22,550 bases of DNA from a virus: the IMG/VR virus record IMGVR_UViG_3300023284_001656, positions 1-22,550 of that record. One strand, 5' to 3'. The notes beneath the pieces are model-generated. The model saw only the letters and a list, made by a program, of their open reading frames with translations. It had not been told where the DNA came from and did not search any database. The position numbers and the translations under genes are program-made. Numbering within the stretch: position 1 is the first letter of the stretch; every line of letters starts with the position of its first letter. Below are positions 6,105 through 22,392 of the stretch, one piece after another.

Positions 6105-6197
6105 ATGCGCTCAAGGCTCGCTGTGGATTGTGTTGGCCTGCAACTAGCACTTGTCCGTGAACAGATCGTGCGCGAATGGGCGCTCAGGCTTGTGTTA

Positions 6198-6567: not shown

Positions 6568-6571
6568 GCAA

Positions 6572-6922
6572 ATGAAGAAACTGATTCTGATTCTGTTCCT
6601 CTCCGCCGTGAGTCTTTCTGCCCAAAGCCCTGAACACCGTTTCTTTGACCGCAACAACCTGATTGGCTTTTCCGCTATGTTCGCAGGAACTGCCCTTGAC
6701 CATCACTCGACGTGTCGGTTCCTGCGAAGGGGTCAGCGCGAAGTCTTGTTGCCAACCCAGAGTTGTCGCACAGTCGGTATTGTGGTTTACAGCACTTCCT
6801 CCGCCGGGGTTGGGCTAAGCTACTGGATGCACCGCAAGGGGCACCACAAGATAGAACGCTGGCTCCCTCGCCTCCGTGCGATTGGTGGAGGGATTGCAGC
6901 CGGTTGGAACTATCGCCTGTGA
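6572..6922 (+). CDS. Small exported protein with Sec signal peptide
   Basis: The start is ATG 6572 because MKKLILILFLSAVSLSAQS is a clear signal peptide (two lysines, a hydrophobic core, S-L-S-A17 before Q18); the frame is open upstream but reads as non-coding. The 116-residue product continues R-F-F-D-R-N-N-L-I-G-F-S-A-M-F-A-G-T-A-L-D, then a short helix with C, and GLSYWMHRKGHHKIERWLP. Two further hydrophobic stretches could insert in a membrane. I recall similar small proteins with D-R-x-N, A-L-D-x-x-S-T-C and H-R-x-G-H-H-x-x-E in Acidobacteriota genomes, without known function. It is the first of several exported proteins among virion genes. Confidence 0.5.
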   Translation: MKKLILILFLSAVSLSAQSPEHRFFDRNNLIGFSAMFAGTALDHHSTCRFLRRGQREVLLPTQSCRTVGIVVYSTSSAGVGLSYWMHRKGHHKIERWLPRLRAIGGGIAAGWNYRL

Positions 6923-6949
6923 GGGGATTGGTTTGGGAGTAACCGCCTT

Positions 6950-7486
6950 ATGGCTCTGGCCCTAAGAACTCCAAACAACTACTGGCGGCAGTTCAGCCAC
7001 TTCCAGCCAGACAATTTTTTCCCTGCCGAACCATCCGATATTTACAATGAATCCGCCTTTCCGCACGAATGGAACTACGGGTTACCCGACTTCCCTCTCC
7101 CCAAAGACCTGTGCGCCTCCGGGCCAACGCGCGAAGGAGAACTAGACTTTGAGTACAGCCCTGACCGTCCTGTCCAGGACGCCGTGGAGCCTGGACCGTT
7201 CAAGAAGAAATTTCGTCGCCTTCCCAAACGTAAATCTCCTAACGTGCTCCATTTCCCTCAGCCGGCTGATGTACTTCCCCCGCCAGTGGAGTGGCAAGTC
7301 GAGGATGGCTTCCACATGAGCCTAGCTGAACTTATTGATCGTGCTAAGCCTGTACGGTGCGATAAAGGCCCATCAGGGGAATTTCCCACCCCCAAGCCTC
7401 CGATGCAGAGAACTTGGCATTACATTTGGCAAACCAAGAAAGTGCTCGCCTGCACTGGAAAGGGGTGTACACTTTGCTCGCCGTAG
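6950..7486 (+). CDS. Proline-rich hypothetical protein upstream of the large terminase
   Basis: The product has 178 residues from ATG 6950, with GGGAG (6935-6939) ten bases upstream. It is rich in proline and aromatic residues (W-R-Q-F-S-H-F, P-H-E-W-N-Y-G-L-P-D-F-P) with a basic middle (FKKKFRRLPKRKSP). The C-terminus is cysteine-bearing (LACTGKGCTLCSP). It has little predicted regular structure and may be an adaptor that folds on a partner. Its end overlaps the start of the large terminase. No family is recognised. Confidence 0.55.
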   Translation: MALALRTPNNYWRQFSHFQPDNFFPAEPSDIYNESAFPHEWNYGLPDFPLPKDLCASGPTREGELDFEYSPDRPVQDAVEPGPFKKKFRRLPKRKSPNVLHFPQPADVLPPPVEWQVEDGFHMSLAELIDRAKPVRCDKGPSGEFPTPKPPMQRTWHYIWQTKKVLACTGKGCTLCSP

Positions 7487-9072
7487 AACAAGAAAAAAAG
7501 AAATTCATCTGGGAGCCGCAACCCGGTCCACAAAGCGAGTTCTATTATTCCCGCGCCGATGAATGTTTCTATGGTGGGGCGGCCGGCGGTGGGAAGTCCG
7601 ACGGCATTCTTGGTATAGCCTGCTCTCAAGTTCACCATCCCTACTACAAAGCCTTGATCCTGCGCCGCACTCTGGCGGAACTGGCACAAGAAGGCGGCTT
7701 GATCGAACGATCTCACCAACTCCTACGCGGTGTAGCCCACTACAATTCCCAAAAGCATGTGTGGAAGTTTCCCTCCGGGGCGGGGATTCAGTTCGGGTAT
7801 TGCGAATCTGAGTACGATGTTCACCGCTATCAAGGGACTCAATACGCTTTTATCGGCTGGGAAGAATTGACTGGTTTTACCGAATACCAGTACCGAACCA
7901 TCAACGGCTACATTCGCAACCCTGGCTTCGGCTTGCGGAAACTTGTCCGAGCAACTTCCAATCCTGGACGAATCGGCCACGCTTGGGTCAAGGCGATGTT
8001 CATTGACAAACTCACTCCGTACAAAATCTACCGAGTGGAAAAGACCGGCCTTACCCGTCAATTCATTCCCGCTAAAGTCTGGGACAACAAGATTCTCCTC
8101 GCTAATGACCCTGACTATGTGAAACGCCTGAAAGGATTGCCGGAGCCGTGGCGTACCGCTTTGCTGGAAGGCAATTGGAATATCTTTACCGGGCAAGGCT
8201 TTCCTGAATGGGACTACAAAGTACATACTTGCGAACCGCACGAATTAGAATCGTGGTGGCCGAGAGTGATTGCGATTGATTGGGGTTACTCCAAACCCTA
8301 CTGCGCTACTTCAACTGCTGTCACGGATGCGCCCCAAGCCCTTCTTTACCGCGAAGCCTACGGAACTAAACAACTCCCTCCTAGAGTAGCTGAGAGAATT
8401 ATCCGCGAGCATGAAGGTGAACCACGACCAGTTGTGGTGCTGGATCGCGCTTGCTGGGCCAAGACTGGAGCTACCCACACAATTGCAGAACAATTTGACG
8501 AAGTATTCCAACAGGTTGGTTGGACAGTAGAACCAAGCGATTCCGACCGCCTTTCTGGAAAGTTGTTGGTGCATGAATTTCTCCGTACCGAACCAGTTGA
8601 TCCAGTTGTACCGCGCCCTGTGATTGATAGTCACTGGATGGAACGTTTCCGCAACGAAGGGGAAGAAGCAGTTAAGGAATTTGAAGCAATGGGGATACAG
8701 CCTGTGCTACCCCGCATGCTGATTTTCCGCAAAGGTATCTTGAATCGAAAACCCTACGGTTGTCCGAATCTGATTCGCACCCTTCCCACTCTGGTTTTGG
8801 ATGAAGATAATCCCGACGATGTTGACACCGAGCAGGAAGATCACCCCTACGACTCTTTACGCTATGGACTGAAACGCATTGGAGGTGCTGGACAGAAACC
8901 GCTTGCAGACATTTTGGGTGAACGCCTAGTCAACACCGATGCCTCTACCCGCCACATTGCTCGCGGCTTGGCAATGAAGCTCGACCGACGGCTGAAACTC
9001 TTGACAGGGGGTAGCATGAAGCGCATTATTTACCACGGTCACGCAAAGAATCGCCGCCGAGGGCCAGTGTGA
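7474..9072 (+). CDS. terL: Terminase large subunit (packaging ATPase and nuclease)
   Basis: This is the motor that pumps DNA into the procapsid and cuts it. I take TTG 7474 as start, with GGAAAGGGG (7457-7465) eight bases upstream; GTG 7465 is an alternative. The 532-residue product has Walker A G34-G-A-A-G-G-G-K-S42, Walker B A125-F-I-G-W-E-E131 with the catalytic glutamate, and a coupling motif A160-T-S-N-P-G165. An RNase H-like nuclease domain follows, with likely metal ligands D269 (IAIDWGY), D324 (VVLDRACW) and D460 (HPYDSLRYG). Length and motif order are complete for the family. It follows the proline-rich gene and overlaps the next gene by GTGA. Confidence 0.92.
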   Translation: MLAVEQEKKKFIWEPQPGPQSEFYYSRADECFYGGAAGGGKSDGILGIACSQVHHPYYKALILRRTLAELAQEGGLIERSHQLLRGVAHYNSQKHVWKFPSGAGIQFGYCESEYDVHRYQGTQYAFIGWEELTGFTEYQYRTINGYIRNPGFGLRKLVRATSNPGRIGHAWVKAMFIDKLTPYKIYRVEKTGLTRQFIPAKVWDNKILLANDPDYVKRLKGLPEPWRTALLEGNWNIFTGQGFPEWDYKVHTCEPHELESWWPRVIAIDWGYSKPYCATSTAVTDAPQALLYREAYGTKQLPPRVAERIIREHEGEPRPVVVLDRACWAKTGATHTIAEQFDEVFQQVGWTVEPSDSDRLSGKLLVHEFLRTEPVDPVVPRPVIDSHWMERFRNEGEEAVKEFEAMGIQPVLPRMLIFRKGILNRKPYGCPNLIRTLPTLVLDEDNPDDVDTEQEDHPYDSLRYGLKRIGGAGQKPLADILGERLVNTDASTRHIARGLAMKLDRRLKLLTGGSMKRIIYHGHAKNRRRGPV

Positions 9073-9362
9073 AAAAGAAAACCAAGCCAAAGGTCAAGGT
9101 CGCCAGAACAACCAGATTGCCTAAACCGCGCGTGCGAGAAGTTGAGGGCGTTACCGAAAGGGCGCTCCGACTTGCTATCGAAAAGGCGCTACCTGATTTT
9201 CTAAAAGCATCCCGCCAACCAATGCCCGCGCAAACAAGCCACTCCGTTGCAATTGTCAAAAACTGCGTGAAATTTTACGAAACAACTACTGGCGCGAAAG
9301 CCAACCAGACTCGCCTGATTGACTTTGTGCGCTGGTGTGAGGAAAACAGTGGCCTTCTCTAG
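9069..9362 (+). CDS. Small basic hypothetical protein, GTG start
   Basis: The GTG at 9069 overlaps the terminase stop by GTGA. The 97-residue product has a strongly basic N-terminus, MKKKTKPKVKVARTTRLPKPRVREVEG, then a mostly helical domain (TERALRLAIEKALPDFLKAS, later LIDFVRWCEEN). There are no catalytic motifs. Close coupling to the packaging ATPase suggests a head-assembly or packaging accessory role, but there is no sequence proof. Confidence 0.55.
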   Translation: MKKKTKPKVKVARTTRLPKPRVREVEGVTERALRLAIEKALPDFLKASRQPMPAQTSHSVAIVKNCVKFYETTTGAKANQTRLIDFVRWCEENSGLL

Positions 9363-9394
9363 TTTTCGGCGAAGTCCGGGCAACCTGCCAAGTC

Positions 9395-9799
9395 GTGCGT
9401 TCCAAGCTCCCCAGCGCGAAACCATCATCCGCCGCCTTCCTTCCCAGCGACGCCGCTTTCGCTTTCGGCTCAATCGCCGCCAAAGAGGTTCACGCCTTGG
9501 GCCTTCCTATTGAAGCTAGGATTTACCTACAAGCGACTCGCTACAAACCCGCCGGATCAGTCGCTATTACTCTCAACGCCACCGAACATGATGTAGTGAT
9601 TCCAGACGATGGTTTTACCTACCGCACCAGCGGAATGAAAAACATCGTGCCGATGGTGACGTTGAATCTGATTGTGACCTACGCGATAGAATTCCGGCCA
9701 GGTGAAACTGATTTCTCCAAAGGGTTTCGCATTATCTTGGGTGCGCCGGCCCCCGCTGGTCTCAAGGCCAGTTACAGTTTTGCGGTAGGAGCAGATTGA
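9395..9799 (+). CDS. Beta-rich hypothetical structural protein
   Basis: The product has 134 residues; the only start codon in the open frame is GTG 9395, which lacks a clear ribosome site, so the N-terminus is uncertain. From about residue 38 the sequence alternates like beta strands (EARIYLQATRYKPAGSVAITL, then D-D-G-F-T-Y-R, M-V-T-L-N-L-I-V-T-Y-A) and ends in K-A-S-Y-S-F-A-V-G-A-D. This suits a small virion beta-sandwich, perhaps a decoration or fibre-associated protein. Its stop overlaps the ATG of the next gene. Confidence 0.5.
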   Translation: MRSKLPSAKPSSAAFLPSDAAFAFGSIAAKEVHALGLPIEARIYLQATRYKPAGSVAITLNATEHDVVIPDDGFTYRTSGMKNIVPMVTLNLIVTYAIEFRPGETDFSKGFRIILGAPAPAGLKASYSFAVGAD

Positions 9800-11904
9800 T
9801 GAAAAAACTACTCTTACTCTTGCTGCTGCCTGTTTCTCTGTACGCTCAAACCATTCGTCCGACCTTCATCAGCCAGATTCAATTCACCGAACTCACGACC
9901 GCCCAAGAAGCCAGCATGACGCTGGCAGAGGGCTCCCATTGGTACAACACTACCCTTAATTGCATGCGAATCCGGTTGGTCGCCTCCAGTGTGTGTATTG
10001 CAGGTGGCGGCGGTAGATGGGACGAACTTACCGACCCGACCGCTGCGACCACGTTCCTCAGCGACGCTCTGATTGAGACGTTGGACTTCGATTTCCAAGC
10101 GCCTTTCACAACCGGAACACAAGTTCATTTTCGTCAGACTACCGGAAACCCCACTGGTGGGAACTTCTTTGGCATCACAGTTAATGATCCTAATGTACTG
10201 CCGTTTTTCATCAGCGACGGTACGAATAATGTGTTCCAGGTGGAGCGGGATGGCGACACCACCATTCGGAACTGGCTAGACCAAACTCTTTCAACTAACT
10301 TTGATGGGGGTGACACTACCTCTCAGATCGTCTCCCTTTGTCTCAACGATAGAGGTACTACGAGGTGGTGCATCCAAAAAGATGCCTCTAATGAGTTTAA
10401 CATCGAAGCCGCAGGCATCCAGCGAATCTTTCTCGGTATCAACGCAGACAACTCCTATCTAACGGGTTCCGTAAGTTCTGACCACCTGTTCAAAGATTCA
10501 GCGGGCCTGATTCGCTTTGTCATTGACGGTGGTGCCGACAGGATAAGGTGGGGGGCTGCGGGGGACACCAATCTCTTCCGCGCTGCCGCAAATATCCTCG
10601 CCACCGACGACCAATTTGAAGTCAGGTCGGGAGCGAACACAGTGTTCAAAGTGAAGCTGGATGGCGACACCGAAATTCGGAACTTTGCTGACGTAGGCCT
10701 TAACTTAATTCTTGATTCCGGTGATACAGCACAGCAGGGAGTGTCATTACTTTACCGGCACAAAGAAGTAAAGCGGTGGGCGGCAATAAGCACCTCAACA
10801 GACCAATACATAATCCAAGATAACGCGAACGCTACACGAATCTCATTAGCTCAGACGGGGGGACACGTCTACAACACAGCGGGAACGAGTCCTCACGAGT
10901 TCCGAGCAGGAGGCACTCAGCGCGTCCGCATTCGCGGCGACGTTGACGGAATCAGCTTCGGGAGCTTGGTCGATGTATCGGTGGAGCGGGCTGCCCACCC
11001 GAACTCCGTGTTAGGGTTCAGCATAGAGCCAACGGGGAGGGTGTTCGGTATGGCTCTGTTTGTGGGTGACCCCAATACGACCGGCTGGGGGGCCACCGAA
11101 AAAGGTGTAATGTGGTTCAATACGACCAGTAATACTTGGAAGGGGTGGGATGGGGCGGCTGTCGTTACCCTAACCACTAGCATCGGGACGTGGCTGAGCC
11201 TGTCTGACACCCCCGGCACCTTCACTGCTGGTGCTTTTTACAATGTCAATACCGGCGCGACTGCACTGGAACTAAGCCCGCTGTCGGAGGATGCCGATTC
11301 GCTCAACTCCTCCATTGACTTTGAGGCCCCCCAAGTTTCGACCACCGGCACGGCGGCAGGCGAGTATCGGATGCACGAACCCACCGCCACCGGAACAGAC
11401 TATGTTGCCCTCGGCGCACCGGCATCAATAGCGGCGAACATTAAATTCATCGTGCCTGCGGCTGATGGCTCCGCAGACCAAGTGTTGAAAACGGACGGCT
11501 CTTTGGTTCTAGGATTCACCTTCATGAGTTCCGCCAATCTCGTCGCCGCCAACAAGACCATTACTTGCAACCTCACCATCTTCCGTGACACTGGGCTCAA
11601 GGACACTGATGACCTTTTTAGCGTCACGGCTTGCAGCCGTCCAGGGCGTGACATCACCATCACCACCTTTAGCTGCGAGTGTGACGCCGGTTCTCCCATC
11701 GTCAATGCCCAACGGGATGATGGAACCCCTGCCAATATCTTGACGAGCAACCTGACCTGTACCACAGGGGGAGCAACTGGAACTCTCAGCGCGACCGAGA
11801 AACTCATCGCAGCGGCTGACAGGTTTGACTTCGTGGCGGTTTCTGGAATGTCGGGCGCCGACCAGTGCAGCCTGAACATTCTAGCCACGGTGGATGAGAC
11901 CTAA
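9799..11904 (+). CDS. Exported, repeat-containing fibre-like protein
   Basis: ATG 9799 has AGGAG (9787-9791) seven bases upstream. The 701-residue product starts with a textbook Sec signal peptide (MKK, seven leucines, P-V-S-L-Y-A16 before Q17). Residues about 30-60 carry L-A-E-G-S-H-W-Y-N and about 450 carries G-V-M-W-F-N-T-T-S-N-T-W-K-G-W-D-G, short motifs typical of tail-fibre proteins. A module beginning V-F-x-V-x-x-D-G-D-T-x-I-R-N occurs at residues 145 and 282, exactly 137 codons apart. The C-terminal 110 residues form a cysteine-containing beta domain. It is probably a receptor-binding or surface fibre. A Sec signal on a phage virion protein is unexpected, so it could instead be displayed by the infected cell. 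Confidence 0.6.
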   Translation: MKKLLLLLLLPVSLYAQTIRPTFISQIQFTELTTAQEASMTLAEGSHWYNTTLNCMRIRLVASSVCIAGGGGRWDELTDPTAATTFLSDALIETLDFDFQAPFTTGTQVHFRQTTGNPTGGNFFGITVNDPNVLPFFISDGTNNVFQVERDGDTTIRNWLDQTLSTNFDGGDTTSQIVSLCLNDRGTTRWCIQKDASNEFNIEAAGIQRIFLGINADNSYLTGSVSSDHLFKDSAGLIRFVIDGGADRIRWGAAGDTNLFRAAANILATDDQFEVRSGANTVFKVKLDGDTEIRNFADVGLNLILDSGDTAQQGVSLLYRHKEVKRWAAISTSTDQYIIQDNANATRISLAQTGGHVYNTAGTSPHEFRAGGTQRVRIRGDVDGISFGSLVDVSVERAAHPNSVLGFSIEPTGRVFGMALFVGDPNTTGWGATEKGVMWFNTTSNTWKGWDGAAVVTLTTSIGTWLSLSDTPGTFTAGAFYNVNTGATALELSPLSEDADSLNSSIDFEAPQVSTTGTAAGEYRMHEPTATGTDYVALGAPASIAANIKFIVPAADGSADQVLKTDGSLVLGFTFMSSANLVAANKTITCNLTIFRDTGLKDTDDLFSVTACSRPGRDITITTFSCECDAGSPIVNAQRDDGTPANILTSNLTCTTGGATGTLSATEKLIAAADRFDFVAVSGMSGADQCSLNILATVDET

Positions 11905-12638
11905 TGAGAAAGCTATTCCTACTCTTCGCGTTCCTTCTCGCTCAACCTGTCTGGGCAGCTTTCCCGACGGTTGTGACTGCTGCCAACTCGGTCCAGGCCA
12001 CTGATTCAACCAGCCATACCGTCAGTCTGCCTAGTGGTATTGTAAGCGGAGACTTGTTGATTGGATTCTTTTCTTGTGACGGTACTGCTACGGTTACATG
12101 GCCCAATGAAGGTACAGACTGGATCGAGATCGTTTCCAACGCTAGTGTTGCCAACCGTCTGAGCATTGCGTGGCGAAAGGCCGACGGCACAGAAGGGGCC
12201 AGTATAACAGTGACGACGAGTGCGAGTGAGGAATCTGTTCACATTGTATATCGCATCACTGGACATATAGACCCCAGCACACAGCCGCCGGAGCAGGCAA
12301 GCACTACCGGAAGCGGTGTCAACCCTAACCCGCCTGATTTGACCCCAACGGGCGGAGCCAAAGATTATCTCTGGTTCGCAATCGAGGGTAGCGACGATGA
12401 TGATCTTGTTACCGTCTACCCAACCAGCTATACGGACGGAGAAACATATGGGTCATCTACCGGCGGTGGCGATTGTGGGATTGGTGCGGCGCGGAGAGAA
12501 CTGAACGCAGCCAGTGAAAACCCAGGAGCATTTACTATCGCTGCCACTGAGCAGTGGGTGGCGGCAACAATTGCGGTTCATCCTGTCGCTGCCGGGGCCG
12601 ATGACGATTTGATGATACTGGCTCGAAGGGGGCACTAA
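11904..12638 (+). CDS. Exported beta-rich protein
   Basis: ATG 11904 overlaps the previous TAA. The 244-residue product has a signal peptide with likely cleavage after V-W-A19. The body is beta-rich: G-I-V-S-G-D-L-L-I-G-F-F-S-C-D-G, then T-D-W-I-E-I-V, L-S-I-A-W-R-K-A-D-G-T-E-G, I-V-Y-R-I-T-G. This S-G-D-L-L...W...K-A-D-G-T-E order is seen in phage-associated and metagenomic beta-sandwich proteins of unknown function. A T-P-T-G-G...W-F-A-I-E-G repeat of the fold occupies the second half. It lies between the fibre-like and beta-helix genes, probably as one secreted cassette. Confidence 0.55.
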   Translation: MRKLFLLFAFLLAQPVWAAFPTVVTAANSVQATDSTSHTVSLPSGIVSGDLLIGFFSCDGTATVTWPNEGTDWIEIVSNASVANRLSIAWRKADGTEGASITVTTSASEESVHIVYRITGHIDPSTQPPEQASTTGSGVNPNPPDLTPTGGAKDYLWFAIEGSDDDDLVTVYPTSYTDGETYGSSTGGGDCGIGAARRELNAASENPGAFTIAATEQWVAATIAVHPVAAGADDDLMILARRGH

Positions 12639-14771
12639 GTGGGTAAAGCGAGAACGGCAGTATTGGTATTAGGTTGCTTGCTTCTATCCCCGAATTCCAA
12701 TTCGTCCATCCAAGTAGCGACAGGCAGGACTACGACTCTAGGACGTACTACGGCTATCAAAGAAGTTGCTCCACCTGCTGGGTCGAGGACAGTGAGTGCA
12801 GTAGCCATACTAGACCCAGGCAGTTCCTACGACATCTTCTTGGAGCAGATTTTCAGCTTCCGAGCCGAAGTGACCACCACCGGCACCGGGGACAGCGACT
12901 ACGACATTCATTTCCAGGTCAACGATGGCGCATGGGCCGACATGCCCACCAGCGGCGCGTTGGATTTGGTTGCAGAGGGGCCGCCTATCAACCCCGCCGT
13001 GAATTTCAAGGTTGACCAAACTACTAAAGTCCATCGGCGGATGGTCAGGGCGGCGCAGGCGCTTACCTACACCATCCGGGCGCGGGTAGTGGATCACAAC
13101 AACAGTGAGGCTGTCACCCTCAGTTCGACCGAGACGGTCACAGCCACAGCCTACGGCGGCAGCATCACGCTCCCTCTACCCATCTTGGACTACATGGACA
13201 TTCGCTTTCCCGACGCGCTGAGTGGAACCACGACTACCGTGAGTTCAGCTCTCCAGACCGCCCTGAATGCTGCGGCCTGTGGCGACACCCTTGAATTGGT
13301 AGCGGGAACAACTTTCACGGGTAACTTCGTCTTGCAGCGCAACGAGTGCGGCTGCGCGGCTGACCCAACCAAGTGGATAATGATTCGCTCCAACACCGCC
13401 GATTCCAATTTGCCAGAGGAAGACGTGAGGTTCGATCCTGCGGTTCACGGGGCCTTCGTTCCTATCATCCTGACGGGCACGTCGAGTCCAACTCTGGACA
13501 CCGATGCCGCTTCCACGGCGGCCAACACGGTTGATTGCTACTACTTCTTTGGCGTCAAGTTCGAGTGTACCGTGACTGGCGCGTCTGAGAACTTCGGGTG
13601 TGTCGGCGTGGGAGAGAGCACCGGAGTCGCCAATTCACCGGAATTTATCATCTTCGACCGTGTGTGGTTTAAGGCCGACGACCAGAAGGACGTGCGACGT
13701 GGCTTGTTCATTCATAGTGCCGCCGACGTGGCGGTAATAAACACCTACTTTGAAGGCTGGCAACACACTGGAACTGATTCCCAGAGTATCTTGGTGAAGC
13801 AGGGCCACACGCTTCACTTTGAGAACAACCTCCTAGATGGCGCTGCCGAGCCCATCCTGTTCGGCGGGATAGTCCCGGCCACCGACCAAGTGCCTGAGGA
13901 CATTCTCATCCTGCGGAACAACATGACGCACCCGAACGAATGGAATCCTGAGCATCCTGACTGGGATGGGCGGCTTTCTCGTGATATTAAGAATCTGTTG
14001 GAGTTCAAGAACGGTCGGCGCGTCATCATAGAAGGAAACGTATTCAACAACAACTGGACAGGGTCGCAGGCTGGACAGACGATCATACTCACACCCCGAA
14101 ATGCAGGCGGGTGTACTTGGTGCACCGTCCACGATGTCGTCATTCGATACAACAAGATTTTCGATGTCGGTCGCGGCTTCAACATAGGTGGTAGGGACAA
14201 TGTAGCTACGAGCCTGGACAGCCACAACATCTGGGTGCATGACAATCTTCTCTTCAAGGTCGGCATTGACCCCTTCGATGGAGGTAACGAGGCTATCATC
14301 GTGGGTACGACCACCTCCGATAGCACGGACGTGCGGTTCACACACAATACTTTTTCAAAGACGCTGAGGCATGGCGGTGTCCAGGCGCAGGCAGGGTGCA
14401 ACTTCGATTTGAACTCCTATGAGTTCAGCAACAACCTCAATGACGTAGATAGGTTCACCGCCATTGGCACCGGGCAAGCACCAGGGCAGCCCACTTACGA
14501 CGCCTGCTACGATGTGAACTCCATCTTCTTGAACAACGCGGTGGTGAACATCGACACCACCGAGAATTGCAGCGGAGGAAGCGGCAGCGGCGATTATCCC
14601 ACTAACCACATCTGCGTAACCGGGTCGGCGGCAGTCAAGTTCACCGACCGCCTGAACGACGACTACTTGCTCCTGGCGACTTCCCCCTATTTTCAGGCCG
14701 GGACCGATGGCAAGGACATCGGGGCCAATATCCCCCTAGTGTTGAGTTTTACAGCGGGGGTTCTTCAATAG
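12639..14771 (+). CDS. Secreted right-handed beta-helix protein, putative polysaccharide depolymerase
   Basis: The GTG start directly follows the previous stop, with AAGGGGG (12626-12632) as ribosome site. The 710-residue product begins MGKARTAVLVLGC, a short basic and hydrophobic leader ending in lipobox V10-L-G-C13. Residues about 50-170 form beta domains. From about 185 the sequence turns into right-handed beta-helix repeats: D-T-L-E-L-V-A-G-T-T-F-T-G-N-F, later N-L-L-E-F-K-N-G-R-R-V-I-I-E-G-N-V-F, V-V-I-R-Y-N-K-I-F, I-W-V-H-D-N-L-L-F. Such pectate-lyase-like helices form phage tailspike depolymerases, and secreted Acidobacteriota proteins share the E-x-K-N-x-x-R-V-x-I-E-G-N-V-F wording. 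Several cysteine pairs suggest disulfides outside the cytoplasm. No catalytic residues were assigned. Confidence 0.65.
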   Translation: MGKARTAVLVLGCLLLSPNSNSSIQVATGRTTTLGRTTAIKEVAPPAGSRTVSAVAILDPGSSYDIFLEQIFSFRAEVTTTGTGDSDYDIHFQVNDGAWADMPTSGALDLVAEGPPINPAVNFKVDQTTKVHRRMVRAAQALTYTIRARVVDHNNSEAVTLSSTETVTATAYGGSITLPLPILDYMDIRFPDALSGTTTTVSSALQTALNAAACGDTLELVAGTTFTGNFVLQRNECGCAADPTKWIMIRSNTADSNLPEEDVRFDPAVHGAFVPIILTGTSSPTLDTDAASTAANTVDCYYFFGVKFECTVTGASENFGCVGVGESTGVANSPEFIIFDRVWFKADDQKDVRRGLFIHSAADVAVINTYFEGWQHTGTDSQSILVKQGHTLHFENNLLDGAAEPILFGGIVPATDQVPEDILILRNNMTHPNEWNPEHPDWDGRLSRDIKNLLEFKNGRRVIIEGNVFNNNWTGSQAGQTIILTPRNAGGCTWCTVHDVVIRYNKIFDVGRGFNIGGRDNVATSLDSHNIWVHDNLLFKVGIDPFDGGNEAIIVGTTTSDSTDVRFTHNTFSKTLRHGGVQAQAGCNFDLNSYEFSNNLNDVDRFTAIGTGQAPGQPTYDACYDVNSIFLNNAVVNIDTTENCSGGSGSGDYPTNHICVTGSAAVKFTDRLNDDYLLLATSPYFQAGTDGKDIGANIPLVLSFTAGVLQ

Positions 14772-14776
14772 AGGCG

Positions 14777-15130: not shown

Positions 15131-15266
15131 GCCATCCAAGCTCTACGCACGCAACCGTGGCATGCTTGGAATGAACAAACGACAATTGCACCATCTAGCC
15201 GCTACTAAGGAAAAAGGCTTGCCGCAGAAGAAAGGAAAGTACCGCTTCCGCTTGCGGCAGAAATAA
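15078..15266 (+). CDS. Small phage protein resembling DUF3008-type proteins
   Basis: GTG 15078 has AAGGAGG (15065-15071) six bases upstream. The 62-residue product reads MPALSKAARRTAGIAEHEPSK, then M-N-K-R-Q-L-H-H-L-A-A-T-K-E-K-G-L-P-Q-K-K. The layout (M-P-x-x-S-K-A-x-x-R, middle M-x-K-x-Q-L, then A-T-K-x-K-G-L-P) is shared by many short phage proteins near portal genes, similar to DUF3008, and their role is unknown. The final residues (KKGKYRFRLRQK) are encoded by the direct repeat that also occurs after the portal gene. Confidence 0.6.
   Translation: MPALSKAARRTAGIAEHEPSKLYARNRGMLGMNKRQLHHLAATKEKGLPQKKGKYRFRLRQK
15219..15261 (+). repeat. Direct repeat, copy 1 (upstream of portal)
   Basis: TTGCCGCAGAAGAA (15219-15232) and a 21-base block beginning ACCGCTTCCGCTTGCGGCAG (15241-15261) recur downstream of the portal gene at 17639-17652 and 17655-17675. 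The spacer is 8 bases here and 2 bases there. TGCCGCA and TGCGGCA within the unit are inverted, so each copy can fold into a hairpin. This copy encodes the C-terminus of the small protein at 15078. Confidence 0.75.
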
Positions 15267-15267
15267 T

Positions 15268-17628
15268 ATGGCAACCAGTCCCGGTGCCGGTTCTCTAACC
15301 TCAGTTGTTTCCAGCCCTGCCCCTGCCGCTCCTGGCGAGCAGCAGAAGCCAGAAGGCACTGATTATCCTTCACTGAATGAGCATCGTGGCGAGGACTTAC
15401 CCGATAGCGCGCAGCGTTCTTTGCGCGAAATCGTCAACCGCTACGAGATTGAGCACAACAGCACTTGGCGCTACTTTCACCATCACTTTGCCAAAGCCGA
15501 CTACTACTGGCGCGGGATTCAGAATATCTACTTCGATGCGGAAGTGGACAACTACCGGGAAATTACCAGAGATGTATTTCGGCGCTTTGGTTTGAACGAC
15601 GAAGAAGAGCGATCCTACCTCTACCCGGTCAATTTCTACACCGCGATGGGAGAGTCAATTATCGCCATCCTGCTGCAACGCTTACCCAAAGGTCGCTTTG
15701 TTCCAACCGACTTTGAAAAAGAAGTGGACGTAATTGCTTCCAAAGCGGCCAACGCAGCTAAGACTCACCTAGATCGTGTGAATCAAGCCCGCCTGCTCTA
15801 TGCTCATGTTCTCTACCTAGCCTATACCCACGGTGTATTTGGTGCCTACACCCGCTTCAAGGTGGACAAAGACCTCTACGGCTCAAAGCAGGAAACAGCT
15901 TATACAATGGGTCAATCGCGCATTCCCCCTGCTTATTTTTGCGACCAATGCGGCACCATGAATCCAGCCGCTAACTTAGTTCTTACGGCTGGCATGTGTG
16001 TACGATGCAAAGCTCCGCTTCAACGCGAGAATCTGATTCCAGAAAAAATGATTGAAGTGCCGCAAGAAAGCCATACCTATGAAGTTCCCAACGGTATGGT
16101 CAAGACCGATATACACGATGGCCTTGAAATGCGGTTGCCCTTCTTTGCTCGTACCAGAACAGAGTGTCCTTTCATCGGCTTGGTATCTGAAATTGATGAA
16201 ACCTCTTTGAAAAACTCCAATCCCGACAAGGCCGACAAAATCACTGGTGGGTATCACGCCAGTGGAGGCGAAGAAGGCTACGACCGCTACCTGCGTTTAG
16301 CTCGAATGCAGCCCTACGGCTACTTCTATGGCACGGGAGCAGAAATTACCAGCCTAGTCACTTGGCGGCGCTGGTGGTTAAGGCCCTACACCTTTTGGAG
16401 TTTGAACAAGGATAAGCGCGAGGAACTTCTGCACTACTTTCCCCAAGGAGCGAAGGTTCACTTCGCCAACGATGTATTTCTCCTAGCAGAGAATGAATCT
16501 ATGGACGATCACTGGTCGGTGGGCCACACCATGCCCGGTGTAGGCATGTATCGCAATTCCATCGGGCAGAGCGTCATTCCTTTGCAGGAAGCCTACAACT
16601 TTGACGAATCCATCAAGCGGGAATGGATTGAGTACAAGTCGTTTGAGCCGGAGTTTGTGGACGTTCGGATGGTGAACGTGGATGCCTTGAATCGCCGCAA
16701 GATCAGGGCACGCGAAATGGTGGGAGTGGATGTTCCTGCGGGTAAGTCAATTCACGATGCCAAAGTGGAGTCGCGCAAAGGTAAAGGGCCAGAAGCAGCT
16801 TTTCGCCACTCGGTTGATATTTTTGAAATGTCACGCTTTTTGGCCGGAGCGCCCCCAAGTCTAAGCGGCGGTATGCAAAAAGTTGTCAAGCCGATGGCTT
16901 TTGCTGCGGACCGTGACATGGCTTTGGGCCGAAAAGGCATTCACTACGCCATGCTGGTTGATTTCTGGAACGATATGTCCTATCAGCAGGTCAAGATTTT
17001 CAGTGAAACCCAAGAAGAGGACGTTCGTTACCAACTCAAGAAAGGCGAAGGATACGAAAATGTGGTGGTTCCAGTCCAGGCACTCAAGGGGGGGAACTTT
17101 TCCATCTATCCCGAAATTGACGAAGGCTTCCCCGCCCTGATCGAACAGCAGCGCGAAACCTACATGAAGATGCTGGAAATGCAAGACGAGGAGTTCAACA
17201 AGATTCTCGCTCACCCGCGCAACATTGATTTGGGTAGGCAAATGTTTGGCCTGAAGTTGTATATCCCCGGCGAGGACGACCGCCATAAGCAGTTGCTTGA
17301 AATTGACGGCTTGCTCAAGGGTAAGCCCATGCCGCAGATGGCCCCTGATCCTACTACTGGGATGCCGACTCAGCGTTTGGTTCCTTCCATTCCGCCTAAT
17401 CCCCATGTGGACAACCACGCTATCCACGCCGAAGAACTCAAGAATTTCCTGGTTTCTTCGGCTGGAATCGAAGCAGAGAAAGCCAACCCTGGAGGCTTTG
17501 CCAATTGCATAGCGCACCTACTGGCGCATGAGGATATTATTCAACAAGAGATGCAGGCTGAGGCACAGGCTCAAGCAGCAATGCAGGCGCAAGCGGAACC
17601 GCAACCGACTGCTCCAGCGAAGAAATAG
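15268..17628 (+). CDS. Portal protein
   Basis: The portal forms the dodecameric ring through which DNA enters and leaves the head and to which the tail attaches. ATG 15268 follows the previous stop by one base. The 786-residue product has a proline/alanine-rich N-terminus, a helical region (WRYFHHHFAKADYYWRGIQN) and a membrane-free central domain containing a zinc ribbon (C225-x2-C228, C244-x2-C247). A wing/stem-like section follows (EAYNFDESIKREWIEYKSF, FLAGAPPSLSGGMQK), and then a long glutamine/alanine-rich C-terminus. Large size and layout fit P22-type or other large portals found in environmental phages. The assignment rests on overall pattern and context (terminase upstream, scaffold and capsid downstream), not a single motif. 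Confidence 0.72.
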   Translation: MATSPGAGSLTSVVSSPAPAAPGEQQKPEGTDYPSLNEHRGEDLPDSAQRSLREIVNRYEIEHNSTWRYFHHHFAKADYYWRGIQNIYFDAEVDNYREITRDVFRRFGLNDEEERSYLYPVNFYTAMGESIIAILLQRLPKGRFVPTDFEKEVDVIASKAANAAKTHLDRVNQARLLYAHVLYLAYTHGVFGAYTRFKVDKDLYGSKQETAYTMGQSRIPPAYFCDQCGTMNPAANLVLTAGMCVRCKAPLQRENLIPEKMIEVPQESHTYEVPNGMVKTDIHDGLEMRLPFFARTRTECPFIGLVSEIDETSLKNSNPDKADKITGGYHASGGEEGYDRYLRLARMQPYGYFYGTGAEITSLVTWRRWWLRPYTFWSLNKDKREELLHYFPQGAKVHFANDVFLLAENESMDDHWSVGHTMPGVGMYRNSIGQSVIPLQEAYNFDESIKREWIEYKSFEPEFVDVRMVNVDALNRRKIRAREMVGVDVPAGKSIHDAKVESRKGKGPEAAFRHSVDIFEMSRFLAGAPPSLSGGMQKVVKPMAFAADRDMALGRKGIHYAMLVDFWNDMSYQQVKIFSETQEEDVRYQLKKGEGYENVVVPVQALKGGNFSIYPEIDEGFPALIEQQRETYMKMLEMQDEEFNKILAHPRNIDLGRQMFGLKLYIPGEDDRHKQLLEIDGLLKGKPMPQMAPDPTTGMPTQRLVPSIPPNPHVDNHAIHAEELKNFLVSSAGIEAEKANPGGFANCIAHLLAHEDIIQQEMQAEAQAQAAMQAQAEPQPTAPAKK

Positions 17629-17638
17629 GGAGGAAACA

Positions 17639-17675
17639 TTGCCGCAGAAGAAGCACCGCTTCCGCTTGCGGCAGA
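17639..17675 (+). repeat. Direct repeat, copy 2 (downstream of portal)
   Basis: The same two blocks as at 15219-15261 occur here (17639-17652 and 17655-17675), with a 2-base spacer. The copy begins exactly at the TTG start of the next gene. The encoded peptides correspond (LPQKKHRFRLRQ here, LPQKKGKYRFRLRQ there), so reading frame is conserved between the copies. Confidence 0.75.
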
Positions 17676-17845
17676 CTTACGAAACCAAAGACCGGATTCT
17701 ACCAATGTTGAAGTTGAAAAAACCAGTGACCATCCGCATCACAGGGGACGACAAGTACCTACGCCTATTTGTCGGCCCCCGTGATTGGCAGTTCTCCAAA
17801 GAGGACGGGCGTTTTGTCGGGGCGGGTACTCGCCTGGGGAATTGA
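17639..17845 (+). CDS. Small basic phage protein, TTG start
   Basis: TTG 17639 is chosen because GGGAGG (17628-17633) lies five bases upstream; the frame is open further back only as a shadow of the portal gene. The 68-residue product begins with the peptide also found at the end of the 15078 product, then T-I-R-I-T-G-D-D-K-Y-L-R-L-F-V-G-P-R-D-W-Q-F-S-K-E-D-G-R-F, a compact beta-type domain. It stops just before the flavodoxin-like gene. The function is unknown. Confidence 0.5.
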   Translation: MPQKKHRFRLRQTYETKDRILPMLKLKKPVTIRITGDDKYLRLFVGPRDWQFSKEDGRFVGAGTRLGN

Positions 17846-17846
17846 T

Positions 17847-18548
17847 TTGCCTGAAACCTACGAACAGATGGTGGATAGGGAAACCGCCCCCCACTCTCCG
17901 GCTAATTCCTTGCGCGCGCTTATTCTAAACGCTTCCCTCAAGGCTGGCCCGGAAACGTCCAATACCGGCGAACTAGCTGCCGAAGTTGTGGAAGAAATGG
18001 AAAAGCATGCCCCTGGCCTGCGTCATGATGTCGTGCGCTTGGCCGACTATGAAATCCCAGTCGGCGTCAAAGCCAACATGGGGAAAGGGGACGACTGGCC
18101 CGAAATCTCCAAGCTCTTGTTGAAGGCTGACATTGTACTGTTTGCTACACCAATTTGGTGGGGGGATCGCTCTAGCCTGATGCAGCGAGTGATTGAGCGC
18201 ATGGACGATTTTGACGAGCAGTACCTAAAGAGCGGGAAGAATCTGATCTACAACAAAGTCGCAGGCGTTGTGATTACCGGCTCCGAAGATGGTGCTATGT
18301 CCACCTTCTCGCATTTAGCTGGCGTGTTGACTTGGCTGGGCTTTACCTTGCCGCCCGAAAGTGGAGCGTACTGGGTCGGGGAAGTGGGGCGGGCCGGCCC
18401 GCAAGATGCTCAAAAACGCCGTCGCAACAAAAGCACCAAAAAGATGATTCACTATATGGCGCGCAACTTGGTCAAGATGGCTCAAACCCTAAAATCTCAT
18501 CCTCTCCCGGCCAAAGGAGAAGAAAAGCACGGAGCCAGCACGCGATGA
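17847..18548 (+). CDS. Flavodoxin-fold NAD(P)H-dependent FMN reductase-like protein
   Basis: I favour TTG 17847, with GGGGA five bases upstream; ATG 17868 is an alternative. The 233-residue product has a first strand A-L-I-L-N28-A-S-L-K-A-G-P-E-T-S-N-T with the phosphate-binding loop of the NAD(P)H-dependent FMN reductase family. Later come A-D-I-V-L-F-A100-T-P-I-W-W-G106, which contacts the isoalloxazine ring, L-M-Q-R-V-I-E-R-M-D, K-V-A-G-V-V-I-T-G-S-E-D-G and LTWLGFTLPP. These enzymes bind FMN and reduce quinones, flavins or other acceptors with NAD(P)H. It lies between portal and capsid genes with tight spacing, so it is phage-borne, an auxiliary function. The C-terminal 45 residues are basic. 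Confidence 0.72.
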   Translation: MPETYEQMVDRETAPHSPANSLRALILNASLKAGPETSNTGELAAEVVEEMEKHAPGLRHDVVRLADYEIPVGVKANMGKGDDWPEISKLLLKADIVLFATPIWWGDRSSLMQRVIERMDDFDEQYLKSGKNLIYNKVAGVVITGSEDGAMSTFSHLAGVLTWLGFTLPPESGAYWVGEVGRAGPQDAQKRRRNKSTKKMIHYMARNLVKMAQTLKSHPLPAKGEEKHGASTR

Positions 18549-18754: not shown

Positions 18755-18933
18755 TTGAACTGAGGTGCAAGAGGTGCAGAAAATTGCTGCTACGAGCAAT
18801 GCTTCGCTCTGGCAAAATAGAGATCCCATGCCCCCGCTGCGGGACAAAAAATACTTATTGCTTTTCAGCCCGTAGTGGGCGTAGTTTAGGGTGGTTTGAT
18901 AGGGAGGAACCAAAGGCTGTAACGACAAGCTGA
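18751..18933 (+). CDS. Com-like zinc-finger protein
   Basis: The 60-residue product begins MIELRCKRCRKLLLRA, with C6-x2-C9 and C27-x2-C30 (IEIPCPRCGTKN). This matches the small Com family (phage Mu Com), in which L-R-C-x-x-C-x-x-L-L and I-x-I-x-C-P-R-C-G-x-x-N are the hallmarks. In Mu, Com binds mom mRNA and permits translation of the DNA-modification gene; many phages carry related proteins without mom. No modification gene is visible in this window, so the target here is unknown. The start is in an ATGA overlap, and a terminator follows. Confidence 0.7.
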   Translation: MIELRCKRCRKLLLRAMLRSGKIEIPCPRCGTKNTYCFSARSGRSLGWFDREEPKAVTTS

Positions 18934-18965
18934 GCGCCGCGAGCGCCTAAAAACTAGGCTCACTG

Positions 18966-19008
18966 AAGCCCACCCCGTCTTAGGACGGTGAGTGGGCTTT
19001 TTGTTTTT
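18966..19008 (+). terminator. Strong intrinsic terminator
   Basis: AAGCCCAC (18966-18973) pairs with GTGGGCTT (18992-18999). Inside, CCGTC pairs with GACGG around a TTAG loop. The stem runs directly into a T-rich tail (18998-19008). It separates the portal/accessory transcript from the scaffold and capsid genes, implying that the latter have their own promoter or depend on read-through. Confidence 0.85.
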
Positions 19009-19045
19009 TGCAATGATAAACAGGATTCCTCACGAAAGCCGACTC

Positions 19046-19060
19046 GCCGCCGTTAGCGGC
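19046..19060 (+). promoter_or_regulatory. Leader hairpin ahead of scaffold gene
   Basis: GCCGC-CGTTA-GCGGC forms a 5-bp hairpin about 12 bases before the ribosome site (GAGGT, 19072-19076) of the scaffold-like gene. It may stabilise the mRNA 5' end or modulate translation. I could not identify a confident promoter in the 74 bases between the terminator and this gene. Confidence 0.3.
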
Positions 19061-19082
19061 TGTACTGGAGTGAGGTAGTAAG

Positions 19083-20324
19083 ATGGCTGACGAACCCGTA
19101 GTGGCCGAACCACAGGTTGCCGAAACCCCCGCCCCGCCAGCGGAAACCCCGGCAGAACAAGAACAACCTACACTTACGCCGGAGCAGGAAATCGAGAAGT
19201 TAGCTCCGACGGAAGAGAAACCGGAAGAAACTCCCGCCCCATCGGCTGCGGAGCCGCCCCCGGAAGGGGAGAAACCTGTAGGGGAGGAAGCGAAACCGGC
19301 GGAAGAAGCTCCAAAACCCGAACTGTCACCGGAACAAGTTGAAGCTGAGAGTGCCTTACCGGAGAATGTCCGCAAGGCATTTGGCGAAGTGCCTGAATTG
19401 CGCGGGGTCTATTTCCGCGAGAAGCAGTACGCAGAGATTTACGGTAGCTTGGACAACGCCAAGCACGTTCACGCTGAGTACGCTGACTTGCAGGAAACCG
19501 ACCGCCAGTTTACATCGCCTAAGAGAGAGGATCAAATCTCCTTTCTCCAAGGGATGCAAGAGCAATTCCCCGAAGCCTACAACAACGTCCAGGGATTAGT
19601 GGTTGAAAGTGCGCTCCGGCAGTACGCAGAGGACGAGCGCACGATCTACAACCGTCCTGAGGTTGCAGACCATCTGGACGAAGTTAGGGAGAGGTATTTG
19701 GGCGACGGAGTCCAATCCCAACCAGCTACGGGAGTAGATGCGAGGGAACGGGCACTGGAAGTGCGGGAACAAGAACTTTCCAGCAAGGAAACAGCCGGCA
19801 CACAGCAACGGGCAGCGGAGTTTCAGCAAGGTGTTCAAGGAGCCTGGGAAAAACGGGTGGACAGTCATATCACCGAAAGAGTCAAAGAATTGCTAGGAGA
19901 CAAGTCGCTTCCCAAATGGCACGCCACTGGCCTCCGTCGCAACGTCCTAGAACGAGTGGGGCGTGCGATTGAGAACAATCCCATCTTCCAAGACCGCCTG
20001 CTCTCGCAAGTTCAATCAGGGAATTTCTCCGACGAGCATCGGGAATCCTTGGTGAACATGATTTTCAGCGAGTTCTCTTCTTCTCTCAGCAGCTTCGTAC
20101 AGGAGGAATTGGCGGAAGTCGGCCCGTTGGTTGTCCAGCAGAGCACGGAGCGTCAGCAAGCAGTAGAAGCGCGTACCGCCCGCGGTAAAGAACCCGGCGC
20201 GGGTACGGCGCACTCCACGCCCAAAAGGACGCCAGTAGCCGACATGAAGCCCAAGGAAGGCGAAACCGAACAGCAGTTCAATGACCGAATCTTCAGGGAG
20301 TTGGAGCCAACAGCGGCTACCTAA
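19083..20324 (+). CDS. Scaffold-like protein
   Basis: The product has 413 residues from ATG 19083 with GAGGT six bases upstream. The first 100 residues are extremely rich in proline, glutamate and alanine (repeated E-T-P-A-P/E-E-K-P-E-type words). The middle and end are long helices with coiled-coil character (VDARERALEVREQEL), and the C-terminus is polar with basic residues (TPKRTPVADMK). Acidic, disordered-to-helical proteins directly before the capsid gene usually serve as internal scaffolds that direct procapsid assembly and are then removed. There is no catalytic motif for a fused protease. Position and composition, not a specific domain, support the call. Confidence 0.62.
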   Translation: MADEPVVAEPQVAETPAPPAETPAEQEQPTLTPEQEIEKLAPTEEKPEETPAPSAAEPPPEGEKPVGEEAKPAEEAPKPELSPEQVEAESALPENVRKAFGEVPELRGVYFREKQYAEIYGSLDNAKHVHAEYADLQETDRQFTSPKREDQISFLQGMQEQFPEAYNNVQGLVVESALRQYAEDERTIYNRPEVADHLDEVRERYLGDGVQSQPATGVDARERALEVREQELSSKETAGTQQRAAEFQQGVQGAWEKRVDSHITERVKELLGDKSLPKWHATGLRRNVLERVGRAIENNPIFQDRLLSQVQSGNFSDEHRESLVNMIFSEFSSSLSSFVQEELAEVGPLVVQQSTERQQAVEARTARGKEPGAGTAHSTPKRTPVADMKPKEGETEQQFNDRIFRELEPTAAT

Positions 20325-20348
20325 TCTTACTCCAAGAGAGGAAAGACA

Positions 20349-21617
20349 TTGCCATCACCACAAGCAACAACCGATGTGGTTGGAGCACAACTTGAGCGAG
20401 TAATTCCCTCACTCAAACCGATGTTTGAATGGGACGATTTGCTTTTTGGTAAAATTGCCACCAAGCAAGGAGATATGGTTTCGTCTCGTTCGGCGCGGAT
20501 CGTGCTGCAAACACGAACTGGTGGACGTTCCGGTGCAGTATCTTTGGCCGGGGGCGTCCTGGGACGAGGCGGCGCAGGCCGGTACGATGTAGCGACTCTC
20601 ACCCCCCGGTCATCTCGCCACGCCCTAGAGATCAACTACGATGCCGTGAAGCAGACGCGCGGGAACCCTGTTTCCGTGTTCAACCTGCTTAAACGAGAGA
20701 CTTCCAATGCCATGTCGGAGTTCCGAAAGTTCTTCGACCGGCAGTTGCAACAGTCCTCCAACGGCATCCTCGCAACCATCTCAGCGGAGGCGGCTGACGT
20801 TATCACCGTCAACAACGCTCCCTTCTTCGTGCAATTGCTTTCGGAGGGTCAAGTGGTTTCGATTTATGACACCACCTTAGCCACCAAGCGCGGAGAAGGC
20901 GAGATTCTCATCATCGAGCAGGAGTTTGCGCGCTTCACTTTTGTTTCAGGTGACAAGCCCGCAGGCCTGGTCGTCGGTGACGAAGTGTTGCCGGAAGGAC
21001 TGACTGGCGCTACGCCAACATGGTACTTTGGTTTGCCATTCCATATTGACAGTAGTGCCACGGGCACCTGGCTTGGAATCAACCGTGCGACTGAGCCGCG
21101 TATCCGTTCCCACTCCGTCAACGCTTCTTCCAACGCCCTGTCTCACGTTCACCCACGCCAACTGTTGGACAAGATTCGCCAGCGCGTCGGCCTGAAGTAT
21201 TTTCAAAAGGGTCGCTGCCTCTGGCATCTCCATACCGCTCAGACGAAAGCCTGGGAGGATTTGGCGATCTTGATTCAGCGCGTTGACATCGGAAAGGAAG
21301 CAGGCAGCACCATTGACTTGCTTCCTTGGTCAAACTTCCGCATCAGTGGCGTCCCGACCATGGAGAACATTCACGCCGCACGCGACAGAATTGATTTCGT
21401 GTGCCTTGACAACTGGGGCCGGGTGGAAAGTGAACCAATCAACTGGTACGACGAGGAAGGGAAGCGTATTTTCCACCCAGTTGATTCGACTAGCGGCAGC
21501 CCGATAGCAGCGTACTTGATGTATCTCATTGCCTGGCTCGAATTTTACGATGTTAACCCGCCGGCAGAGGGAGCCATCACGTCGCTCGCCATTCCCACGG
21601 GCTACGACTTGCTGTAA
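20349..21617 (+). CDS. Major capsid protein (HK97-fold type)
   Basis: The start is TTG 20349, with AGAGG (20337-20341) seven bases upstream; no in-frame ATG lies nearby. The 422-residue product has a basic N-arm region, a loop rich in glycine (RTGGRSGAVSLAGGVLGRGGAG) that could be an E-loop, then a spine-like helix (GNPVSVFNLLKRETSNAMSEFRKFFDRQLQQS). Beta sections typical of P and A domains follow (FVSGDKPAGLVVGDEVLP, IDLLPWSNFRISGVPT). Length, location directly after a scaffold-like gene and secondary-structure order fit an HK97-type capsid subunit; there are no catalytic motifs. A strong hairpin follows. Confidence 0.72.
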   Translation: MPSPQATTDVVGAQLERVIPSLKPMFEWDDLLFGKIATKQGDMVSSRSARIVLQTRTGGRSGAVSLAGGVLGRGGAGRYDVATLTPRSSRHALEINYDAVKQTRGNPVSVFNLLKRETSNAMSEFRKFFDRQLQQSSNGILATISAEAADVITVNNAPFFVQLLSEGQVVSIYDTTLATKRGEGEILIIEQEFARFTFVSGDKPAGLVVGDEVLPEGLTGATPTWYFGLPFHIDSSATGTWLGINRATEPRIRSHSVNASSNALSHVHPRQLLDKIRQRVGLKYFQKGRCLWHLHTAQTKAWEDLAILIQRVDIGKEAGSTIDLLPWSNFRISGVPTMENIHAARDRIDFVCLDNWGRVESEPINWYDEEGKRIFHPVDSTSGSPIAAYLMYLIAWLEFYDVNPPAEGAITSLAIPTGYDLL

Positions 21618-21664
21618 AGCAGGAGGAAAAGAGGAAACCACAAGAACACTCAGGTCTGCGGATT

Positions 21665-21690
21665 GAGAGGGGTGGCGTTCCGCCCCTCTC
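21665..21690 (+). terminator. Hairpin downstream of capsid gene, weak U-tract
   Basis: GAGAGGGGTGG (21665-21675) pairs with CCGCCCCTCTC (21680-21690) over 11 base pairs (one G-U) around a 4-base CGTT loop. Only a few T residues follow, so complete termination is doubtful. It may lower expression of the following genes or protect the 3' end of the abundant capsid mRNA. Confidence 0.5.
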
Positions 21691-21714
21691 TATTCCAGAA
21701 ACAAAGGAGCTAAG

Positions 21715-22392
21715 ATGAAATTCACGAAACTGACCATGCTTTTGCTGTTTCTCTTTTGCGCCCCAATGTTGTTGCTGGCGCAAACCACCTGCCCTAGTGG
21801 GAGCAGGATTGCGCCGGGGTTTAGAACCGTAAATCCGTCTGACGGAACCATCAACCGGCCCATCTGCGTTGACAATGCAACTGGGCAGTATGTATATCAG
21901 ACCGGAAACATCAGCCTGCTAGCTGGCAGCACCCTAATCTTTGAGGGAACCACCGATGATGCCTTCGAGGCTACCGTCTCGGCTGACGATCCGGCGGCGG
22001 ATTACAACCTGACCCTAGGCGAGTTCACCGTTACCAAAGATTTCGGCCCTACCACTGCCGAACTCATTACTGCCAACGGGAAATTCTTTATCGCTACGCG
22101 GAAGTATCGTGTAGTTGATATTGATGCCGTCTGGACGGTAGAGGAAACCACCGGGTCAATGGACATCATGGTTGAGCGCCTGCAAGGAATTGAGGCGTGT
22201 GGTTCTGGCGACGATCTGCAAACAGCGGCAATTGACGCTACAGGCACAGCGGAAACAGTGAACAACGCCACCCTGACGGCTACTGTAGCTTTACTGAGCC
22301 TGGCAGCCGGGGATCGGCTTTGTGTCACTCTAACAGCCACACCGAACGAAATTGACGGCATAGTGGTTTCAGTTCGACTTGTGCCCGAATAG
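21715..22392 (+). CDS. Exported protein with C-terminal beta domain
   Basis: ATG 21715 has AAGGAG about seven bases upstream. The 225-residue product begins with a Sec signal peptide (MKFTKL, a hydrophobic core, M-L-L-L-A22 before Q23). Next come a cysteine pair and a G-T-I-N-R-P-I-C-V-D-N-A-T-G-Q-Y-V-Y-Q section, then a beta-sandwich-like domain. Its last 100 residues loosely match the end of the large fibre-like protein at 9799 in strand pattern and key words (a-G-S...I, A-A/G-D-R, final I-x-V). It follows the capsid gene, where head-decoration or completion genes are normally found, which makes a signal peptide surprising. Confidence 0.55.
   Translation: MKFTKLTMLLLFLFCAPMLLLAQTTCPSGSRIAPGFRTVNPSDGTINRPICVDNATGQYVYQTGNISLLAGSTLIFEGTTDDAFEATVSADDPAADYNLTLGEFTVTKDFGPTTAELITANGKFFIATRKYRVVDIDAVWTVEETTGSMDIMVERLQGIEACGSGDDLQTAAIDATGTAETVNNATLTATVALLSLAAGDRLCVTLTATPNEIDGIVVSVRLVPE

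Follow-up and report, generated by a model that had tools for sequence, protein, structure and literature searches.

Could proteins encoded among the virion genes of a tailed phage leave the cytoplasm through the Sec pathway of the host? We address this question in a 22.5-kb virus record (IMGVR_UViG_3300023284_001656, hereafter the window, the whole stretch of DNA that was analysed), for which a sequence-only reading had claimed that five products of the packaging and virion transcript begin with clean Sec signal peptides or a lipobox. All five genes were located on the + strand, at 6572..6922, 9799..11904, 11904..12638, 12639..14771 and 21715..22392, within a block whose landmarks are also on the + strand. 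The landmarks are the terminase large subunit TerL (7414..9072; phrog_979, E 1.2e-52), a presumed portal protein of 786 amino acids (aa) at 15268..17628, a presumed scaffold at 19083-20324 and the major capsid protein MCP (20349..21617; phrog_14242, E 1.3e-6). The portal and scaffold labels come from size and gene order, as neither protein has a family match, nor the former a PHROG match. Two close relatives were available for comparison, namely the 40.2-kb record IMGVR_UViG_3300022707_003617 (G001), which comprises the loci L028 and L002, and L003; the presumed portal is 93-98% identical in L002/L003.

The leaders were identified with a rule-based scan considering the charge of the n-region, a hydrophobic core of 8-12 residues and the -3/-1 rule, at a cut-off score of at least 4.5. 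On annotated E. coli MG1655 sequence totalling about 95 kb, the scan recovered 7/7 type I leaders and returned, at this cut-off, one false positive, the soluble cytoplasmic protein CarB. The products of 6572, 9799, 11904 and 21715 score 5.02, 4.94, 5.44 and 4.75, respectively, and that of 12639 is borderline (4.18), while the window's 29 genes, shuffled 2000 times, yielded a mean of 0.1 leaders and a maximum of 2 at the same cut-off. The first four display the anatomy expected for Sec and signal peptidase I, that is, a positive n-region, an h-region of 7-15 residues and small residues at -3/-1, and their predicted cleavage sites (SLSA^Q, LYA^Q, VWA^A and LLA^Q, respectively) bear out the statement that four leaders end in A-Q or A-A. 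The hydrophobic runs of the leaders, 7-14 residues, are like those of cleavable signal peptides. The frequency of Q at +1 suggests that the host is a diderm similar to Bacteroidota or Acidobacteriota; a search of genome_contigs with the 6572 family for host assignment gave no match. The gene starts are not arbitrary, because at 9799 (TGATG), 11904 (TAATG) and 12639 (TAAGTG) the start codon overlaps with, or lies next to, the stop of the gene before, and that at 21715 is preceded by an AAAGGAG site, a strong Shine-Dalgarno sequence; a TTG start at 9796 was corrected to the ATG at 9799. Consequently, the claim of clean leaders stands as strong type I leaders for four products, but not for 12639, whose c-region (LLLSPNSNSS) is poor. 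The lipoprotein reading of the latter was rejected because VLGC places the cysteine at residue 13 and cleavage there would leave a leader of only 12 residues; no other lipobox was found among the five products.

The first leadered gene, shortly upstream of TerL, encodes a 116-aa protein with the leader MKKLILILFLSAVSLSA^Q. In L003 (690-1061) and L002 (8894-9409), the corresponding position is occupied by a leadered homologue, so that all three genomes carry the leader, and both cysteines of a pair (STC...QxC) are invariant across them. Small and hydrophobic, this product is of envelope type rather than a fibre. The gene at 9799 encodes a 701-aa fibre-like protein with the leader MKKLLLLLLLPVSLYA^Q, whose Sec signal peptide (9799..9846, +) was assigned by the scan and the length of the h-region; a 53-aa N-terminal module common with L003 is followed by a variable C-terminal part. 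The gene at 12639 has a GTG start and encodes a 710-aa protein labelled beta-helix-like by eye, with no Pfam match; an AlphaFold2 model made without homologues was unusable, with a predicted local distance difference test score (pLDDT) of 30. After MCP, the gene at 21715 encodes a 225-aa protein with the leader MKFTKLTMLLLFLFCAPMLLLA^Q, in which a short stretch resembles a fibre-like 1251-aa protein of G001. No leadered protein of the window matches PHROG or Pfam, and no lytic domain was matched in the five products in either collection. Searches of viral_contigs with the whole 9799 and 12639 products and with the 53-aa module returned the known relatives only, or nothing. By tblastn in cultured phages, the presumed portal, 12639 and the beta-helix proteins of L067 and L028 gave no match, and 9799 gave a 10% match only.

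The gene at 11904 supplies the decisive evidence: its domain belongs to a phage family in which most members lack a leader. It encodes a 244-aa protein with the leader MRKLFLLFAFLLAQPVWA^AFPTV and a 210-aa beta-sandwich domain (w11904), for which AlphaFold2 with 45 homologues predicts a confident all-beta, soluble-type domain (pLDDT 92.5) folded from residue 22, the leader being the sole poorly predicted N-terminal part. Among 79 relatives in viral contigs, G001 itself included, 67 are leaderless: the protein starts no more than about a dozen residues from the start of the domain, typically as M-AFPTV. An in-frame stop lies within 25 codons upstream in 52 of the 58 leaderless relatives examined, so that no leader is possible there. 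The predicted cleavage VWA^AFPTV in the window gives exactly the N-terminus of these leaderless relatives. Nor is the window leader a start-site artefact, because initiation at the next candidate, a GTG at codon 24, would truncate the first strand, whose first residue is 22. A check proposed with the sequence-only reading, namely that homologues might lack leaders and the N-termini be artefacts of start choice, therefore has a divided outcome: the wider w11904 family is leaderless, but the close homologues are leadered and the window start has no usable alternative downstream. In the G001 protein at 10685, the w11904-homologous domain begins at residue 234 and the leader is still at the protein start; thus the position of the leader is tied to the protein N-terminus and not to the domain.

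When viral models were compared by fold, the neighbours of w11904 included actinophage minor tail proteins. Against the PDB, no sequence match and no clear fold match was found (best Z 5.2 at 4.5 Å over 145 residues). The relatives in cultured phages, gp11 of Octadecabacter DB virus 2 and CDS0098 of Maribacter phage Panino, are leaderless, and the genes on either side of gp11 carry tailspike and tail-fibre annotations; the Octadecabacter phage paper contains no virion proteomics for this homologue (PMC9239159). A search of genome_contigs with the domain yielded one bacterial contig with leadered proteins, L113. At 534-7211, this contig of an uncultured bacterium encodes two leadered proteins, each about 1000 aa long, and one of them has a w11904 domain at 35% identity.

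Comparison with the close relatives indicates that the leaders are kept while the cargo is exchanged. TerL is 96-97% identical in G001 and L003, and the flanking DNA is 87-90% identical to L002/L003 over TerL and the downstream genes. The final gene ahead of the cassette encodes a leaderless 134-aa protein (9395..9799, +), through which the homology to L003 extends into the N-terminus of 9799. It ends at 9963, and nothing at this place in L002/L003 matches the hypervariable cassette at 9964..14776 (+), the slot being occupied by a leadered 623-aa protein in L002 and a leadered 569-aa protein in L003. The product of 9799 and that of L003 3437 have in common the leader and the 53-residue mature N-module (75% identity, with both cysteines), beyond which no similarity is found. 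A conserved N-module with a replaced C-terminal part is the pattern of phage receptor-binding proteins, as seen here in a single sequence pair. Close homologues of 6572, 9799 and 11904 in L003, L002 and L028 are likewise leadered, those for 12639 and 21715 being absent from the set, and G001 carries four consecutive leadered genes (L028 7586-12082), one with a PF13229 beta-helix and two homologous to w11904, shortly ahead of a leaderless Amidase_2 endolysin. Upstream of these four, L028 3622-7377 encodes the 1251-aa fibre-like protein mentioned above, in which about 85 N-terminal residues precede a signal-anchor-like hydrophobic segment and the repeats that follow, with paired cysteines (GVSC...TTC), are partly related to 9799.

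Leadered members of the w11904 family, or leadered neighbours, recur in five further contigs or contig pairs. In the pair L067/L068, four leadered genes surround MCP (phrog_283), and the product of L067 4740, which matches tail PHROGs, joins a leader, a beta-helix and a glycine-rich region of tail-fibre type. L106 has three leadered genes in a row, L080 three consecutive ones between scaffold-like and MCP genes, L093 a leadered beta-helix protein upstream of TerL, and L038 one leadered gene after MCP. PF13229 beta-helices are present in leadered proteins of G001, L067, L106 and L093. As background, leaders occur in 34 of 1256 (2.7%) open reading frames (ORFs) of at least 100 aa in the fetched viral loci, a count that includes the leadered loci themselves. 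By the same scan, the control virion blocks of crAss001, phi38:1, B40-8 and lambda have no leaders except lambda Lom, the phi38:1 and B40-8 stretches being part of the record.

The cysteine content agrees with export. The cysteine pairs had been said to suit an oxidising periplasm, and the counts in the mature products are indeed even in all five: 2 in 6572, 10 in 9799, 2 in 11904, 12 in 12639 and 4 in 21715. More broadly, the count is even in 23 of 32 leadered type I proteins (23:9), whereas the leaderless proteins encoded in their loci divide into 198 even and 266 odd (p=0.001, one-sided Fisher test). The leadered list had been edited by hand after the first result: lipoprotein-type and some minus-strand entries were dropped, and window 6572 and 12639 and L028 7586 were added. 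The unedited leadered list gives 23 even to 12 odd (p=0.007). The cysteine frequency is 1.2% in leadered and 0.8% in leaderless proteins. Both parity and frequency fit disulfide bonding outside the cytoplasm. The idea that the domain cysteines are limited to leadered members was dropped, as leaderless w11904-family domains carry 0-5 cysteines; the signal is therefore general and not domain-specific.

Some other features of the window should be noted. An NADPH-dependent FMN reductase (PF03358, 7.4e-18) is encoded at 17769-18548, between the presumed portal and scaffold, and is conserved in G001. The presumed portal gene is bracketed by a repeat, some 43-50 bases long and containing a stem-loop (15219-15261 and 17639-17689), related copies of which occur in L002 and L003. 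Between MCP and the leadered gene at 21715 lies a GC-rich inverted repeat, GAGAGGGG...CCCCTCTC, at 21664-21694, with no T run after it; promoter- or terminator-like sites show no excess in the block. At 627-881, an 84-aa ORF with a hydrophobic stretch of 21 residues, more likely a membrane anchor, probably encodes a small membrane protein and was set aside.

Taken together, we propose, with a probability of about 0.5, that the virion operon encodes a real Sec-exported set, mostly of receptor-binding or adhesin-type beta-structured modules, organised as an exchangeable cassette and serving a mechanism that leads from export to surface binding. Its parts are not equally secure. Export itself is very probably real, judging from the presence, placement, retention and recurrence of the leaders, so that the earlier claim of exported fibre-like and beta-helix proteins among virion genes is well supported by the leader scan, although 6572 does not belong to them. 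A receptor-binding or adhesin-type function is somewhat favoured by the architecture, and docking of the leadered proteins on virions at lysis is rather doubtful. In the proposed mechanism, the five genes would be translated late, coupled to the packaging and head genes, as the overlaps of starts and stops suggest. The leader would then direct each product to SecYEG and signal peptidase I would cut it, whereby w11904 would acquire the N-terminus of its leaderless homologues, in keeping with the coincidence of the two positions. Folding and disulfide formation would follow outside the cytoplasm, as the mostly even and elevated cysteine counts imply, and the mature proteins would act as host-surface-binding proteins. 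For this last step we weakly favour docking of the conserved N-module on finished virions once lysis mixes periplasm and cytoplasm; envelope roles are nearly as likely.

The strongest alternative is that the exported proteins never join virions but remain with the infected cell, in its periplasm or on its surface, where they would block superinfection, or mask or clear receptors so that progeny are not trapped. We regard it as possible, with less confidence than the proposal above. Proteins with such a role would naturally be exported, 6572 is of envelope type, leaderless and leadered neighbours coexist, and a precedent exists in lambda Lom, which is exported to the outer membrane and whose gene lies between tail genes (PMC12309495). 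However, the exchange of C-terminal parts behind a conserved N-module, the tail-type fold neighbours and the position among the virion genes are features seen more typically in receptor-binding proteins, and several large beta-structured proteins per phage exceed the usual needs of exclusion. Late docking agrees with the architecture and position, and envelope action with the Lom precedent and 6572; we hold the two nearly equal. Less probable is that the exported beta-helix proteins are diffusible enzymes or adhesins, secreted or released as an auxiliary function that degrades polysaccharide and aids spread through the matrix. The recurrent PF13229 beta-helices would suit this, but no catalytic family was matched beyond the generic beta-helix, no match marks the fibre-like and beta-sandwich partners as enzymes, and the exchange of C-parts behind the N-module speaks against it as well. 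That the hydrophobic N-termini are virion-internal or membrane-inserting peptides or start-site artefacts, with ordinary fibre assembly in the cytoplasm, is improbable: virion proteins do normally assemble there, the wider w11904 family is leaderless, and missing signal peptides are held typical of phage-encoded adhesins and used to tell them from bacterial surface adhesins (PMC6199706), but the n/h/c anatomy is complete with its -3/-1 residues, start/stop overlaps fix the starts, the h-regions are too short for membrane anchors, and cysteine parity and the conservation of the leader while the cargo changes all argue against it.

Several points weigh against the proposed exported receptor-binding set. 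Export takes a protein away from the assembling virion, and no docking partner is known. In L080 and L093, leadered proteins stand beside leaderless ones, so that not all proteins of this kind need export. Related proteins are pooled in the parity test, and its effect is modest. The part of the genome between MCP and a 980-aa protein is missing, so that an ordinary leaderless receptor-binding protein may exist. Finally, the leadered L113 protein with the same type of domain makes capture of exported host genes possible.

Virions of tailed phages are taken to be assembled wholly in the cytoplasm, and leadered, exchangeable adhesin-type cassettes in several unrelated phage contigs call this rule into question. 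It is conceivable, albeit unlikely on present evidence, that the receptor-binding proteins of some tailed phages reach maturity outside the cytoplasm, through Sec export, processing and periplasmic disulfides, and join virions only at lysis. If so, virions would be assembled by a route that keeps capsid and host-range parts from ever coming together in the cytoplasm. The location of the mature proteins, in the virion, on the cell or free, would be informative both ways, as it would establish either a novel route of virion assembly or a previously unrecognised class of late proteins that modify the envelope. Annotation pipelines should also be cautious about discarding leadered genes in virion operons as host contamination.

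Among known systems, the leadered proteins resemble receptor-binding proteins and tailspikes, such as the crAss001 fibre block and the P22 tailspike, in their position in the virion block, in a conserved N-module with unrelated C-parts and in their beta-rich and beta-helix domains, whereas the same scan finds no leader in gp21-gp26, the fibre/spike block of crAss001. For P22 tailspikes, terminal addition to otherwise finished particles is established. Superinfection-exclusion envelope proteins of the Llp and Cor type are likewise of phage origin, produced by the infected cell and exported; they are small and often lipoproteins, whereas the window products have no convincing lipobox. Sec-exported and signal-arrest-release endolysins, such as Lys44 of fOg44 (PMC6116005), are also late phage proteins that use the host Sec pathway, but they are lytic enzymes, while the window five match no lytic domain and the endolysin of G001 is leaderless. 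The open-access PMC literature searched yielded neither virion fibres bearing signal peptides nor virion-operon cassettes of leadered, exchangeable adhesin-type proteins. The suggestion of an undescribed system thus holds for multi-gene adhesin-type cassettes, which are unreported in that literature, but not for single exported proteins within tail operons, which are known. The closest parallel is lambda Lom (PMC12309495), an exported protein with a cleavable leader, encoded in the tail operon between J and the side-tail-fibre genes and detected by the same scan. Lom, however, is one small outer-membrane protein, whereas the window encodes several large adhesin- or beta-helix-type proteins, exchangeable between relatives and in one case built on a phage tail-type domain.

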